A DNA stretch of 53,376 nt from Candidatus Gastranaerophilales bacterium. GTDB taxonomy: Bacteria > Cyanobacteriota > Vampirovibrionia > Gastranaerophilales > Gastranaerophilaceae. Made by a program: the position numbers and the translations under genes. Each line of letters opens with the position of its first letter. The first letter of the stretch is position 1. The stretch spans positions 1 to 53,376 of the forward strand of contig CALUUI010000013.1 of assembly GCA_944323925.1 (NCBI GenBank), in the 5' to 3' direction. Of the stretch, positions 3,027 through 43,053 are shown one piece after another. The notes under the pieces were generated by a model. The model searched no databases, had not been told where the DNA came from, and worked only from the letters and a program-made list of their open reading frames with translations.

Positions 3027-3043
3027 AATTTTTTATCAAATCA

Positions 3044-15572: not shown

Positions 15573-15636
15573 TATTTTCTCTCTTTACAATAATCCTTAT
15601 ATATATAAAGTATATCCTTACAAGAAAAATTGACTT

Positions 15637-15693
15637 TTTGTAAACTTTTGTAACAGATATGTTATAAAATTGTTATTCTGTGGAATATATATA
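15637..15693 (+). promoter_or_regulatory. Flagellin-type upstream module before the candidate small RNA
   Basis: TTTGTAAACTTTTGTAACA (15637-15655) matches the flagellin upstream block at all but one or two bases. GGAATATATATA (15682-15693), the flagellin -10-region string, follows 26 bases later. In both flagellins the gap is 37 bases, so here it is shorter by 11, about one helical turn. Confidence 0.55.
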
Positions 15694-15700
15694 GTATCAA

Positions 15701-15776
15701 TCTCTTTTCTTTATTTTCTCCTCCACTCCTTTATCACGACGAGAGTTATTGCCGTTCTTAACAAGACGGCTTTTTT
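15701..15776 (+). ncRNA. Candidate small RNA or attenuated leader
   Basis: Between a promoter-like module and a Rho-independent terminator lies a roughly 76-base stretch with no open reading frame. Its 5' half is unstructured and pyrimidine-rich. It contains CTCCTCC (15718-15724), which is complementary to Shine-Dalgarno sequences. It could be a trans-acting regulator of translation, or the prematurely terminated leader of the phospholipase-D-like gene at 15814. The transcription start is inferred from the -10-like box. Confidence 0.4.
15751..15776 (+). terminator. Terminator inside a larger inverted repeat
   Basis: GCCGTTCTT-aac-AAGACGGC with one bulged T, followed by six T. It lies between a perfect 10-base inverted repeat, TTTATCACGA (15730-15739) and TCGTGATAAA (15792-15801), so a competing larger fold is possible. 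Confidence 0.8.
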
Positions 15777-15813
15777 ATTGCATTCAATAATTCGTGATAA
15801 AATGTAGGGCAAG

Positions 15814-17538
15814 ATGAAAAAGTTATTCTACTTATTTACTTTAATCCTTTTTATTGGGACTTTTTGTTATATTGAATACAAAAATTCATTTTTTGATGTA
15901 CTGGAAATTAAATCACCATCAGAATTTGTACTAGATTTTAACCATAACAAATCTTATGAGCCAGATGAGAGTATTAGCTTCCCTGATATTAAAATATTAC
16001 CAAACCCTAAAGATAATTTATCCGATAAAGAATTATTCATTTTTAATGAACTTTCTAGAAACTTTACAAAAGACCTTTTATTAAACAAAAAAGTTCAATA
16101 TAGAAACAATACTATGTTTGTAGGGAATAAAAGTTATGTTGAAGAATTTAATAAAGCAGGTTTTAACTACGAAAAATCAAGTAAAGAATATTCAAATTTA
16201 GTCAAACGCATACGAGAAAACAATTTTTATATTCTTAATTTATACAATTACAGAATACATAAATTTGAATGTAAATATGCACTAAAGTCAGAGAATTATA
16301 GGCTTTATGAAGAAAAAGATTTACCACAGAAAGCAGTAAAGTGCAAATTATGCTTTAAACAGTCAAAAGAATACAACAAAACAATTAACAATTTTAAGAA
16401 CCCGCAAACAATATCCAATGGTGAAATAAAAGTATTTTATACTGATTTAACGACAAAATTAAAACCTGATACTAACTGTAGCAGTGATATTTGTAAAAAC
16501 ATTTTATCAGAAATCAATAAAAGCAAAACAAATATAGATATGGCAATCTACGGATATCAAAGGATTCCGCAAATAGATAGCGCAATAAAATCAGCGCTTG
16601 CAAGAGGCGTAAAGATAAGGATGGTTTATGACTTGGACAGATATGGAAATTCTATTTACGCTGATACAAAGGAATTAGCCAATTTAATCAAAAATACTAA
16701 AAATGATAATTATGCAGAATCACAGATTAAAACAAAGTATAACAACAATCTCATTATGCATAATAAATTTTTTATTTTTGATAACAAAACCGTAATAACA
16801 GGCTCTGCAAACCTTAGCCCAACCGATATGTCCGGATTTAACACTAATGCGGCTGTTTTAATTAATTCTCCTGAAATCGCTAAAATTTATTCTAACGAAT
16901 TCGAACAAATGTATAATAACAAATTTCACAACATAAAAACAAAAACTACAGCAAATACTAATATAAACTTAAAAGGAAGTAATATTTCCGTATATTTTTC
17001 GCCTCAAGATAGAATTACAGAAAACTATATTTTGCCAATAATTAGGAATGCTAAAAAATATATCTACATCCCCGCATTTTTAATAACCGATAAAAAACTG
17101 ACAGAAGAACTTATCCAAGCAAAACAAAGGGGCGTTGATGTAAAAATAATTCTCGATGCTGTAAATGCACACTCTGAGTACTCTCAAATAAAGAATTTAA
17201 GAGTAAATGGAATACCTGTAAAAGCAGAAAATTACGCAGGAAAAATCCATTCTAAATTAATACTCATAGACGGCAAAACAACTATCTTAGGTTCAATGAA
17301 TTTTTCAAAAAGCGGTCAAAACTATAATGATGAGAATGTCTTAATAATCCAATCAGAAGAAATAACAAAAAATCTACAAAAAATGTTTGATTACCTATGG
17401 ATAAAAATAGATAATCGCTGGCTAACGCAAATTCCGAGAAGTGAAGGGAAAGATTCAATCGGATCTTGCAGTGATGGCGTAGATAATAACTTTGATGGGA
17501 AAATTGATATGGCAGATATTGGTTGCCAAGCTAATTAA
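15814..17538 (+). CDS. Secreted phospholipase D-like protein with two HKD motifs
   Basis: A 574-residue PLD-superfamily protein. The N-terminus (KKLFYLFTLILFIGTFCYI) is a signal peptide or anchor. Residues about 145-185 hold an H-x3-C...C-x2-C module (HKFECKYAL...KCKLCFKQ) like the small metal-binding module of secreted nucleases and MBL proteins. The two catalytic motifs are MHNKFFIFDNKTVITGSANL and IHSKLILIDGKTTILGSMNF, each with the trailing Asn, so the enzyme should be active as a phosphodiesterase on lipid or nucleic acid. The C-terminus ends CSDGVDNNFDGKIDMADIGC, an Asp-rich calcium-binding-like cap seen on surface proteins. It follows the candidate leader or small RNA and overlaps the convergent repeat-protein gene by eight bases. 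The substrate is unknown. Confidence 0.9.
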   Translation: MKKLFYLFTLILFIGTFCYIEYKNSFFDVLEIKSPSEFVLDFNHNKSYEPDESISFPDIKILPNPKDNLSDKELFIFNELSRNFTKDLLLNKKVQYRNNTMFVGNKSYVEEFNKAGFNYEKSSKEYSNLVKRIRENNFYILNLYNYRIHKFECKYALKSENYRLYEEKDLPQKAVKCKLCFKQSKEYNKTINNFKNPQTISNGEIKVFYTDLTTKLKPDTNCSSDICKNILSEINKSKTNIDMAIYGYQRIPQIDSAIKSALARGVKIRMVYDLDRYGNSIYADTKELANLIKNTKNDNYAESQIKTKYNNNLIMHNKFFIFDNKTVITGSANLSPTDMSGFNTNAAVLINSPEIAKIYSNEFEQMYNNKFHNIKTKTTANTNINLKGSNISVYFSPQDRITENYILPIIRNAKKYIYIPAFLITDKKLTEELIQAKQRGVDVKIILDAVNAHSEYSQIKNLRVNGIPVKAENYAGKIHSKLILIDGKTTILGSMNFSKSGQNYNDENVLIIQSEEITKNLQKMFDYLWIKIDNRWLTQIPRSEGKDSIGSCSDGVDNNFDGKIDMADIGCQAN

Positions 17539-17857
17539 TGAAATATCCACCCATCCCATCCGGCTGCATATGCCCGTTTGGCGTAAAATAACCACCCATA
17601 CCATCAGGTTGAACATGTCCGTTAGGAGTAAAGTATCCGCCCATATTGTCCGGCTGTATATGCCCCTTGGGGGTATAATAACCACCCATATTATCAGATT
17701 GAATATGCCCGTTTGGCGTAAAATAACCGCCCATATTATCCGGCTGAACATGTCCGTTAGGTGTAAAATAACCGCCCATTCCGTCTGACTGTATATGTGC
17801 TGCATTTGACGCTAATGATACACTTAATATAATTGACAAAAATAATATCTTTTTCAT
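17531..17857 (-). CDS. Secreted 15-residue tandem-repeat protein
   Basis: A 108-residue protein: signal peptide (KKILFLSIILSVSLASNA), then six near-identical 15-residue repeats of the form HIQxDxMGGYFTPNG, ending MGGYFIN. Repeats differ mainly at the residue after Gln and after Asp (Ser/Pro, Gly/Asn), and one copy has YYTPK. The mature protein is rich in Gly, Tyr, Asn, His and Asp with no Cys. Start supported by GGAGAA. It could be a surface fibre, a metal- or sugar-binding peptide, or a matrix component. I do not recognise the family, and the reading frame is convincing because the repeats are conserved in this frame only. Confidence 0.8.
   Translation of the reverse strand: MKKILFLSIILSVSLASNAAHIQSDGMGGYFTPNGHVQPDNMGGYFTPNGHIQSDNMGGYYTPKGHIQPDNMGGYFTPNGHVQPDGMGGYFTPNGHMQPDGMGGYFIN
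17545..17805. repeat. 45-bp coding tandem repeats
   Basis: Six copies of a 45-base unit inside the secreted repeat-protein gene. On the plus strand each copy reads as variants of 'taaccacccatat...tgcccgtttggcg'. Copies differ at several third codon positions, so they are not freshly amplified. The unit is a multiple of three, so copy-number change would keep the frame. Confidence 0.9.
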
Positions 17858-40788: not shown

Positions 40789-41634
40789 CTAAATCAATTG
40801 TAAAGCAATTGATGGAGTTTGGTTAGCAGTAGATAACAGTGTAGTAGCAGCAGATTGAAGGATTTGAGCTTGTAAATAACGAGTAGATTCTTCAGCAATA
40901 TCAGCATCTCTTACTGTAGACAAAGATGATGTAAGATTTTCCGTAGTAACCATAATAGAATCAATAGCAGATTCCAAACGGTTTTGAGAAGCACCAAGAT
41001 TAGTAACCCTAGTACTAATATCATCAATAGCCGCATCTAAAAGAGAAAGTTGATCAGCTGCAGAATCGGCTGCCGAACAATCATCAGCAAAAGTAGCATT
41101 AGCAACACCAATTAATGATTGAGCAGTAGCAGAATCAAACAAATTAGCAGCTAAAGTTACTTTACTATTTGCAGAACCATCTATACCAACTTGAATATTT
41201 ACGTCACCTGTAGAACCATCCATTAATGCCATACCATTATATTCAGCACTTGCAGCAATACGGTCAATTTCGGCAAGTCTGGATGAAATTTCAGCTTGAA
41301 TTGCAGCTCTTGAGTCATCGGAATATGTTCCGTTAGCAGCCTGCTCCGTCAAGTCTCTTATACGTTGAAGGTGTTCATTAATTAAACTGTAATTTTCTTC
41401 TGTTGTAGTCAACATATCTAAACCAATTTGTGCATTATTTGACGCAACATCATATGAACTAAGTTTAGCATTCATTTGTGATGCAATACTATAGCCAGCG
41501 GCATCATCTTTTGCACTGTTAATTTTGTAACCAGTAGTCATCCTTTCAATAGCTGTATTCAACGTCTTAGTTGCAGCATTTAAGTTTTGTTGAACTTTTA
41601 AGGATTGTACATTTGTAACAATTGATATAGACAT
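40789..41634 (-). CDS. Flagellin 1
   Basis: A 281-residue flagellin. The N-terminal D0/D1 region (SISIVTNVQSLKVQQNLNAA, TLNTAIERMTTGYKINSAKD, DAAGYSIASQM) and the C-terminal one (RDADIAEESTRYLQAQILQS, AATTLLSTANQTPSIALQLI) are conserved. The central variable region is very short, giving a minimal flagellin without a D2/D3 outer domain. It would be exported by the FlhA-type apparatus and form the filament. Start supported by GGAGA. About 80% similar to flagellin 2 by eye; separated from it by tRNA-Cys and 445 bases. Confidence 0.96.
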   Translation of the reverse strand: MSISIVTNVQSLKVQQNLNAATKTLNTAIERMTTGYKINSAKDDAAGYSIASQMNAKLSSYDVASNNAQIGLDMLTTTEENYSLINEHLQRIRDLTEQAANGTYSDDSRAAIQAEISSRLAEIDRIAASAEYNGMALMDGSTGDVNIQVGIDGSANSKVTLAANLFDSATAQSLIGVANATFADDCSAADSAADQLSLLDAAIDDISTRVTNLGASQNRLESAIDSIMVTTENLTSSLSTVRDADIAEESTRYLQAQILQSAATTLLSTANQTPSIALQLI

Positions 41635-41671
41635 AATCGGTTCTCCATATTTTGTAGCGCGGCCCTGCGCA

Positions 41672-41750
41672 GATCCTACATAATATATATTCCCGATATC
41701 TTATAAGTAATAACAAAACTAGAGTAATATTGTTACAAAACTTTACAAAA
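41672..41750 (-). promoter_or_regulatory. Conserved upstream module of flagellin 1
   Basis: Read on the minus strand: TTTGTAAAGTTTTGTAACA (within 41731-41750), a 37-base gap that contains GTTATTA, then GGAATATATATTATGTAGG (41693 downwards). The same strings at the same distances occur before flagellin 2. I see no sigma-28 type TAAA/GCCGATAA promoter. The rest of 41635-42021 holds tRNA-Cys and short AT-rich spacers. Confidence 0.65.
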
Positions 41751-41893
41751 CAAGACTAAAAAGCAAGCCATAAAAGGAATACGTTAAACATAAACAACAA
41801 AAAAAACGAATAAAAAAAGTCTTTAAGACCGGAAGTTAAACTAAAAATATGCCCCAGTAGTATATGTTAAAAGACAAAAAAAGCAATAAAAAA

Positions 41894-41965
41894 AGGCGAC
41901 ACCCAGATTCGAACTGGGGGATAAGAGCTTTGCAGGCTCCTGCCTTACCACTTGGCCATGTCGCC
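41894..41965 (-). tRNA. tRNA-Cys (GCA)
   Basis: A 72-base cloverleaf: acceptor GGCGACA/TGTCGCC, anticodon loop CTGCAAA (anticodon GCA), T arm with GTTCGAATC, discriminator T as usual for Cys. No encoded CCA. A run of T follows immediately on the minus strand. Confidence 0.95.
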
Positions 41966-42021
41966 ATCCATAAATCAATGTTAAGGTAAACATACTAAAA
42001 AATCAAGTCAACAATATAATA

Positions 42022-42051
42022 AAAAAAAGAGTAGAGAAAAACTCTACTCTT
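42022..42051 (-). terminator. Terminator of flagellin 2
   Basis: AAGAGTAGAG/CTCTACTCTT (42027-42036, 42042-42051) with a five-base loop and a T run on the minus strand. Confidence 0.92.
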
Positions 42052-42079
42052 AAATATACATATCCAAAATCAAAAGCTA

Positions 42080-42928
42080 TTATATTAATTCCAATGCAAC
42101 TGCCGGAGTTTGGTTTGCAGTAGATAATAAAGTAGTAGCAGCAGATTGAAGAATTTGAGCTTGCAAATATCTTGTAGACTCTTCAGCTATATCAGCATCT
42201 TTAACAGTCGATAAAGAAGAAGTTAAGTTTTCTGTAGTAACATTAATAGAATCAATAGCAGATTCAAGTCTGTTTTGAGAAGCACCTAAATTAGTAACTC
42301 TAGTACTAATATTGTCAATAGCGGCATCTAGAAGAGAAAGTTGATCAGCCGCAGTATCAGCAGCAGTACAAGCCCCAGCAAAAGTAGTATTGTCAGAACC
42401 TAACAAATCTTGTGCTGTTGCCGATTCAAATAAAGTTGCGCCAAGTGTAACTTTACTGTTTGCAGAACCATCAATACCTACTTGAATATTAATATCATCA
42501 TTTATTGAACCGTCCATAAGCAGCATACCATTGTATTCTGCACTTCCAGCAACACGGTCAATTTCAGCAAGTCTTGATGCAATTTCAGCCTCTATTGCAG
42601 CTCTTGAATCGTCAGAATAAGTGCCGTTTGCAGCTTGTTCGGTCAAATCTCTGATACGTTGAAGGTGGTCAACTATTAATGAATAATTTTCTTCTGTTGT
42701 TGTTAACATATCCAAACCAATTTGTGCGTTGTTAGCAGCAACATCATAAGAACTTAATTTTGCCTCCATTTGTGATGCAATACTATAACCAGCTGCATCA
42801 TCCTTTGCACTGTTAATTTTGTAACCGGTGGTCATTCTCTCAATTGCGGTATTTAATGTGTTGGTTGCCGCAGTTAAGTTTTGTTGAACTTTGAGTGATT
42901 GAACGTTTGTAACAATTGATAATGACAT
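42080..42928 (-). CDS. Flagellin 2
   Basis: A 282-residue flagellin paralogous to flagellin 1, with the same short centre and conserved ends (SLSIVTNVQSLKVQQNLTAA ... LLSTANQTPAVALELI). Differences cluster at about residues 160-195. The start is ATG 42928 after AAAGGAG; the frame continues upstream but without a ribosome site. Both flagellins contain a Cys in the same central segment (DDCSAADSAADQ and GACTAADTAADQ), which is unusual for flagellin. Own promoter module and terminator, so it is expressed separately. Confidence 0.96.
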   Translation of the reverse strand: MSLSIVTNVQSLKVQQNLTAATNTLNTAIERMTTGYKINSAKDDAAGYSIASQMEAKLSSYDVAANNAQIGLDMLTTTEENYSLIVDHLQRIRDLTEQAANGTYSDDSRAAIEAEIASRLAEIDRVAGSAEYNGMLLMDGSINDDINIQVGIDGSANSKVTLGATLFESATAQDLLGSDNTTFAGACTAADTAADQLSLLDAAIDNISTRVTNLGASQNRLESAIDSINVTTENLTSSLSTVKDADIAEESTRYLQAQILQSAATTLLSTANQTPAVALELI

Positions 42929-42978
42929 TTTAAGACTCCTTTCATTTTGTCTTGTATTTTTTGCTTCCTTGCGTGGTA

Positions 42979-43053
42979 CCCACAAAATATATATTCCTGA
43001 TTTTCATTTTTTAATAACATGTTTGATTCAAATTTGTTACAAAAGTTTACAAA
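42979..43053 (-). promoter_or_regulatory. Conserved upstream module of flagellin 2
   Basis: On the minus strand: TTTGTAAACTTTTGTAACA (43035-43053), a 37-base gap with GTTATTA, then GGAATATATATTTTGTGGG (42997 downwards). The conserved strings and spacing are the same as before flagellin 1, while the sequence between them differs, which argues for selection rather than recent copying. Confidence 0.65.

Follow-up and report, generated by a model that had tools for sequence, protein, structure and literature searches.

Several anti-Shine-Dalgarno (anti-SD) small RNAs (sRNAs) have been described in bacteria. The cyanobacterial Yfr1 is characterized by a 5' stem-loop, the exact 11-mer ACUCCUCACAC and guaB/trxA synteny (PMC2190773), and in Nostoc it targets mRNAs for the envelope and the cell wall (PMC6974561). 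AbcR1/2 of alphaproteobacteria carry two anti-SD motifs, one of them CUCCUCCC, and block the translation of many mRNAs (PMC8844928), and the anti-SD sRNA CJnc230 (FlmE) of Campylobacter jejuni is linked to the expression of flagellar genes (PMC11187230). Here we analyzed a stretch of 53,376 nucleotides from a Candidatus Gastranaerophilales bacterium (contig CALUUI010000013.1; hereafter the window), a member of an order of gut bacteria that are related to cyanobacteria but do not photosynthesize. In this stretch a putative sRNA gene lies at positions 15698-15777 of the plus strand. It would be the first conserved Gastranaerophilales sRNA with an order-wide distribution, and it opens the question whether Yfr1-like regulation is older than cyanobacterial photosynthesis.

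Comparison with described sRNA families

Searches against Rfam 15 (4227 families) yielded no match reaching the gathering score at the sRNA, the only window matches being tRNAs, and the best sub-threshold matches at the locus had E-values near 1. Among these, RsaE/RoxS (RF01820) matched weakly over 97 nt (16.4 bits vs a gathering score of 79, E 1.2). The likeness lies in a C-rich unpaired anti-SD segment (UUUCUCCCAUCCCCUUU) before the terminator, but RsaE/RoxS is a Firmicutes family, and the Gastranaerophilales sRNA is without a 5' hairpin. AbcR1/2 differ in presenting CUCCUCCC in the hairpin loop of a structured RNA of 114-121 nt, and are unrelated in lineage and sequence. CJnc230 differs in being mostly processed from the flgE mRNA, with stem-loops at both ends, a CCUU motif and an unrelated sequence.

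The anatomy resembles that of Yfr1, with which the sRNA has in common its shortness, an intergenic location, an unpaired CUCCU..CAC core, an intrinsic terminator, wide conservation and the phylum. Yfr1, however, consists of two stem-loops around an unpaired section of 16-20 nt, whereas for the Gastranaerophilales sRNA only the terminator is predicted. High constitutive expression and the binding of targets through the core are further traits of Yfr1. Its ultraconserved, unpaired 11-mer ACUCCUCACAC, present in nearly all sampled photosynthetic genomes, is absent from the genome of the window and at control level in the order, and neither an upstream guaB nor a downstream trxA was among the sRNA neighbors identified. 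An assignment to canonical Yfr1 was therefore rejected for want of the 5' stem-loop, the exact 11-mer and the guaB/trxA synteny. A diverged homolog of the non-photosynthetic branch, with ACUCCUCACAC changed to UCUCCUACACAC or UCUCCUCCACUCC and envelope genes regulated as in Nostoc, would fit the order of motifs (unpaired CUCCU, then CAC motifs, then the terminator), the complementary distributions of 11-mer and sRNA within one phylum, and the frequent adjacency of the sRNA to the envelope genes lptB, dapB and murA, given that Yfr1 targets envelope genes (PMC6974561). We nevertheless regard such homology as improbable: the three hallmarks of Yfr1 are missing, no convincing intermediate was seen in other orders of the class, and a short C-rich motif can arise independently.

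By anatomical analogy, then, the sRNA resembles the C-rich anti-SD sRNAs Yfr1, RsaE and AbcR and is a member of none of these families. No description of a Gastranaerophilales-specific sRNA was found in Rfam or the literature searched, and the locus probably encodes an undescribed regulator of translation.

Anatomy of the sRNA gene

The sequence CAATCTCTTTTCTTTATTTTCTCCTCCACTCCTTTATCACGACGAGAGTTATTGCCGTTCTTAACAAGACGGCTTTTTTATT was read at 15698-15779. Transcription would start at about 15698-15703, as deduced from the position of the -10 element and the point where invariance begins, giving an RNA of approximately 76-80 nt. Its 5' half contains a near-invariant core with module A (UUUUCUUUAUUUUCUCCU, 15705-15722), which is predicted to be unpaired and includes the first anti-SD; the heptamer CTCCTCC (15718-15724), the complement of GGAGGAG ribosome-binding sites; and module B (CACUCCUUUAUC, 15724-15735), a second anti-SD-like block (CACUCC). 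The intrinsic terminator (15751-15776) is formed by the stem GCCGTTCTTAACAAGACGGC at 15751-15770 and a TTTTTT tail extending to 15776. In alignment-based consensus and centroid predictions the terminator is the sole fold of the consensus structure and the core remains unpaired in the centroid folds, and the terminator stem shows compensatory pair changes among relatives in the alignment.

The ORF scan of the window found no reading frame of at least 80 aa over the sRNA, and ATG, GTG and TTG are absent from the core. All parts of the arrangement originally proposed for this locus, namely a promoter-like module, about 76 ORF-free bases, a pyrimidine-rich single-stranded stretch with CTCCTCC and a proper terminator, could thus be located, with the single-stranded state being that of the predicted fold. 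CTCCTCC by itself occurs at chance level in the window (1 observed vs 1.3 expected) and was dropped as a standalone signal. A simple promoter scan scored no sigma-70 hexamer pair at the sRNA promoter, which has no consensus -35. Because of these two results, the evidence of the initial annotation was weak when taken alone.

Promoter region

Upstream of the sRNA, three elements were delimited on the plus strand: TGTAAACTTTTGTAACA at 15639-15655, a TGTTATA element at 15660-15666, and GTGGAATA (15680-15687) followed by the -10-like TATAGT (15690-15695), with GTGGAATA and TATAGT being kept in congeners. TGTAAH is present at -90 to -30 in 114 of 126 sRNA promoters. GTTA stands about 20-21 nt upstream of GGNAW in a near-fixed spacing, and does so alike for both of the core types described below. 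TGTAAACTTTTGTAACA is likely to be an activator or response-regulator site; its reverse complement, TGTTACAAAAGTTTACA, is similar to the cyanobacterial RpaB element HLR1, an example of which is TTACAATCGTTTACAA (PMC6331805).

Matching elements lie upstream of both flagellin genes of the window (40789-41634 and 42080-42985, minus strand; confirmed by PF00669 and PF00700), where TGTAAA-N-TTTTGTAACA, a GTTAT element and GGAATATATAT were found for both genes. The module reported as shared with the flagellins is thus real for this pair, but it also occurs elsewhere in the genome, and before the sRNA in many flagellin-free genera. The 17-mer TGTAAANNTTTGTAACA has 13 exact copies in the genome, several of which precede unrelated genes, and at up to two mismatches 94 genome sites were counted vs 42 for the reversed control; its recurrence hints at a possible regulon with an HLR1-like operator. 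The 13 places of the TGTAAANNTTTGTAACA box in the source genome (G000; e.g. C1:107978, C8:14073, C5:97985, C16:2183) lie before secreted-protein-like genes and close to contig ends. The two flagellin genes (40789-42985), which flank a tRNA gene (41894-41965), are 82-83% alike over the compared stretches.

Conservation in Gastranaerophilales

The source genome has a size of 1.94 Mb, and its relatives are classified as Candidatus Gastranaerophilales or Melainabacteria. A blastn search with positions 15600-15830 alone returned matches of 86-90% identity in five of six congeners, and, in other genera, shorter matches of about 79-97%; the remaining congener (G002, 99% complete) yielded no sRNA copy by blastn or pattern search, which may reflect either an assembly gap or a true loss. 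In an alignment of eight genomes from three genera, the block CAATCTC(T)TTTTCTTTATTTTCTCCTCCACTCCTTTATC of about 37 nt is invariant bar one extra T, and its surroundings diverge. Within the order, approximately 107 of the 192 genomes searched had an exact copy of the 20-mer around CTCCTCC, TTCTTTATTTTCTCCTMCAC, and 6 more had a copy with one mismatch, the reversed control pattern giving few matches. Allowing two mismatches raised the count to 125 of the 192, the two-mismatch remainder being, where read, chance-like matches inside genes. Conservation of 15701-15776 in relatives, proposed earlier as a check, is therefore strong by region-wide blastn, the 37-nt block and the pattern counts, and the result named there as refuting, a lack of conservation other than in the terminator, is clearly contradicted.

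Loci chosen by exact pattern have, by the way they were selected, an invariant 21-mer; invariance is hence claimed from blastn, the eight-genome alignment and the pattern search. Information content was 2.0 bits in the first core block, where it is fixed by locus selection, 1.2-1.6 bits in the next 18 nt, where it is partly so, 1.4 bits in the 12 nt before the core, which were unselected, and 0.1-0.2 bits beyond the terminator.

With a covariance model, most genomes of the family were matched at E-values of 1e-15 to 5e-8, and a second profile reached families f7 (E 7.6e-8, 3.7e-7) and f5 (E 1.2e-4) of the same order. In genera g6, g17, g40, g43, g44 and g47, a diverged ortholog agrees with the sRNA gene in its TGTTA / GGNATA promoter, the placement of its core and its terminator; the core reads CCAATTCTCTTTATACTTTCTCTTCCACTCCTTTTCTCC in g6 and g43 and TTCTTTATTACTTATTTTCCTTCACTCCTTTTCTCC in g40. 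Profile and covariance searches gave no convincing matches in other orders of the class; model matches there in G223, G251, G224, G278 and G219 were discarded on inspection as coding sequence or chance, and the look-alikes L204, L205 and L208-L215 were rejected for lying inside open frames. On this comparative evidence we conclude that the locus is a real sRNA gene, kept order-wide in Gastranaerophilales. A separate look-alike, TATTTTCCCCTACA followed by a terminator, was seen in two genera (L201, G073:C4:45301-45377; L202, G094:C2:174447-174525); seemingly located in the 3' UTR of a gene, it might represent another RNA with a related core, one derived from a 3' UTR.

Genomic neighborhood

Among 132 loci, the neighbors fell into 32 upstream and 67 downstream families. 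The nearest upstream gene was lptB in 33 loci, often with an lptF-like gene behind it, and dapB in 34, with an asd-like gene behind it (the names lptF and asd were assigned from their sequences, not by family search). Other loci have a small gene beside murA upstream, trpS is also among the identified neighbors, and in the genus of the window the upstream neighbors are a small hypothetical gene and a histidine kinase. In 84 of 126 loci, the gene that follows lies on the opposite strand. Since the neighbors change and the downstream gene mostly faces the RNA, the latter is best seen as neither a leader nor a 3' UTR, but as having a gene of its own. Its neighbor-independent conservation, the absence of an ORF and the intrinsic terminator are the features expected of an intergenic trans-acting sRNA with its own promoter and terminator, and a near-unchanging core amid turnover of the flanking genes suggests a central regulator.

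In the window itself, a phospholipase-D-like gene (15814-17538) follows on the same strand, its ATG 38 nt after the terminator, an arrangement repeated in one congener (L002) and one that would suit a cis-acting leader or attenuator. Most relatives, however, have another downstream gene, on the opposite strand, and the phospholipase-D-like gene has an apparent TAAAAT box of its own after the terminator. A leader was thus rejected as the general function of the RNA, and we give this explanation next to no credence. Directly after the phospholipase-D-like gene, positions 17541-17797 hold about 5.7 copies of a 45-nt unit with overlapping minus-strand ORFs.

Proposed function and core types

The reading that we consider likely is that of a standalone, trans-acting sRNA of about 76-80 nt that regulates translation by anti-SD pairing. 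It would be transcribed from its own promoter, and the intrinsic terminator would end the transcript and protect its 3' end. The unpaired 5' half would present one or two pyrimidine-rich anti-SD modules, UUUUCUUUAUUUUCUCC(UCC) and CACUCCUUU in the genus of the window, which would bind target mRNAs at their purine-rich ribosome-binding sites by base pairing, thereby lowering, or occasionally raising, their translation. As targets, flagellar and envelope mRNAs are no more than plausible candidates.

Alignments show that in other genera module B is replaced by (AC)nUAACCUUUU. After CTCCT, relatives differ in how many AC repeats they carry (L009-L164), as if a microsatellite were slipping in an otherwise rigid RNA. 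With its variable repeat number, the (AC)n part is more suggestive of a spacer than of a seed, and the U-rich block could conceivably have a protein-binding role.

A core of the module-B type (CACUCC; GACUCC in f7) was found in 7 of 7 sampled flagellin-bearing genera, and none of the 24 genomes from the 11 genera with an (AC)n core has flagellin (PF00669); g40 and g41 keep module B and have no flagellin. Fisher's exact test at genus level, treating genera as independent and without correction for phylogeny, gave P 0.0005. The link of core type with flagella is suggestive, and it provides a directly testable prediction. The sRNA is also kept in flagellin-free genera, so flagella cannot be its only business. 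In a broader evolutionary scenario, the sRNA would be an ancient functional equivalent of Yfr1, and perhaps its genuine homolog. The ancestral RNA would have been an anti-SD regulator of envelope genes, from whose core two types arose, the one with the second anti-SD block going with flagella and being remodelled to (AC)n upon flagellar loss. We hold this scenario to be rather unlikely.

Target prediction

Candidate targets were ranked by duplex energy with the core in a screen of 412 genes, corresponding to about 20% of the genome plus the window, with flank-shuffled sequences, fully shuffled cores and SD strength as controls. flgA ranked first among the 412, and the transglycosylase gene heading the flgF-flgG-flgA operon sixth. 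The flgD genes of all seven genomes of the genus were in the top 3% by duplex energy, flgE also being high; flgD carries AAGGAGUAGGAGG in 7 of 7 genomes, and flgE carries GGAGGAGGAGAAAAG or GGAGGAGGAAAA in the three genomes read. The AAGGAGUAG of flgD may belong to the end of the preceding coding sequence. Exact GGAGGAGA-N-ATG occurs at about 45 sites in the genus vs 18 for the reversed control, and precedes flgE, flgD, an OmpH/Skp gene (ompH), a gene for an XRE regulator and the same transglycosylase gene; GTGTAGGAG-N-ATG in an (AC)n genus had few sites.

Together with the promoter module common to the sRNA and both flagellins and the distribution of core types, these ranks could speak for a regulator dedicated to flagellar assembly, which would be expressed along with the flagellins and use modules A and B jointly to pair with flgD, flgE, flgA and the rod operon. 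The controls erase the flgD signal, however: shuffled cores of the same composition bind flgD equally well (P ~0.5), and no enrichment of the flagellar genes as a group was seen among the predicted targets (P 0.19, 412-gene sample). The high scores are those of purine-rich sites meeting a pyrimidine-rich RNA. Furthermore, in other flagellated genera, namely genus g36 and those of family f7, the pairing with flgD is retained only inconsistently, and the sRNA persists in flagellin-free genera, including g40 and g41 with module B. Dedication to flagellar assembly is hence a possible but unlikely function.

Over the 412 ribosome-binding regions, the real core bound no better than shuffled cores (-11.3 vs -10.9 kcal/mol, sd 0.5 kcal/mol), and no specific target, flagellar or envelope, survived the composition-matched controls. 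The regulation of flagellar or surface-protein translation put forward in the initial annotation thus found no backing in target prediction against 5' regions. Of the pairing of CTCCTCC with GGAGG-type sites that it had also described, the complementarity is present, but its energy does not exceed that of shuffles, and the 3507 gene is not a notable target.

Within the core, CACUCCUUU resembles the universal anti-SD tail. A general ribosome mimic or titrator, imitating the 3' tail of 16S rRNA (CACCUCCUUU), competing broadly for SD sites and tuning global translation instead of selected targets, would agree with this likeness, with the correlation between core and anti-SD duplex energies (r 0.62) and with no specific target standing out. 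It fits poorly with the most conserved part, UUUUCUUUAUUUUCUCC, being largely not anti-SD, and with the existence of an (AC)n core type without module B; we find it a doubtful alternative to the standalone anti-SD regulator.

Other features of the window

Two near-identical copies of a RelE/ParE-type toxin gene with its antidote gene (TIGR02683/TIGR02684) were found at 596-1248 and 1817-2469. They are 1221 bp apart and sit in repeated intergenic DNA running to about position 3030.
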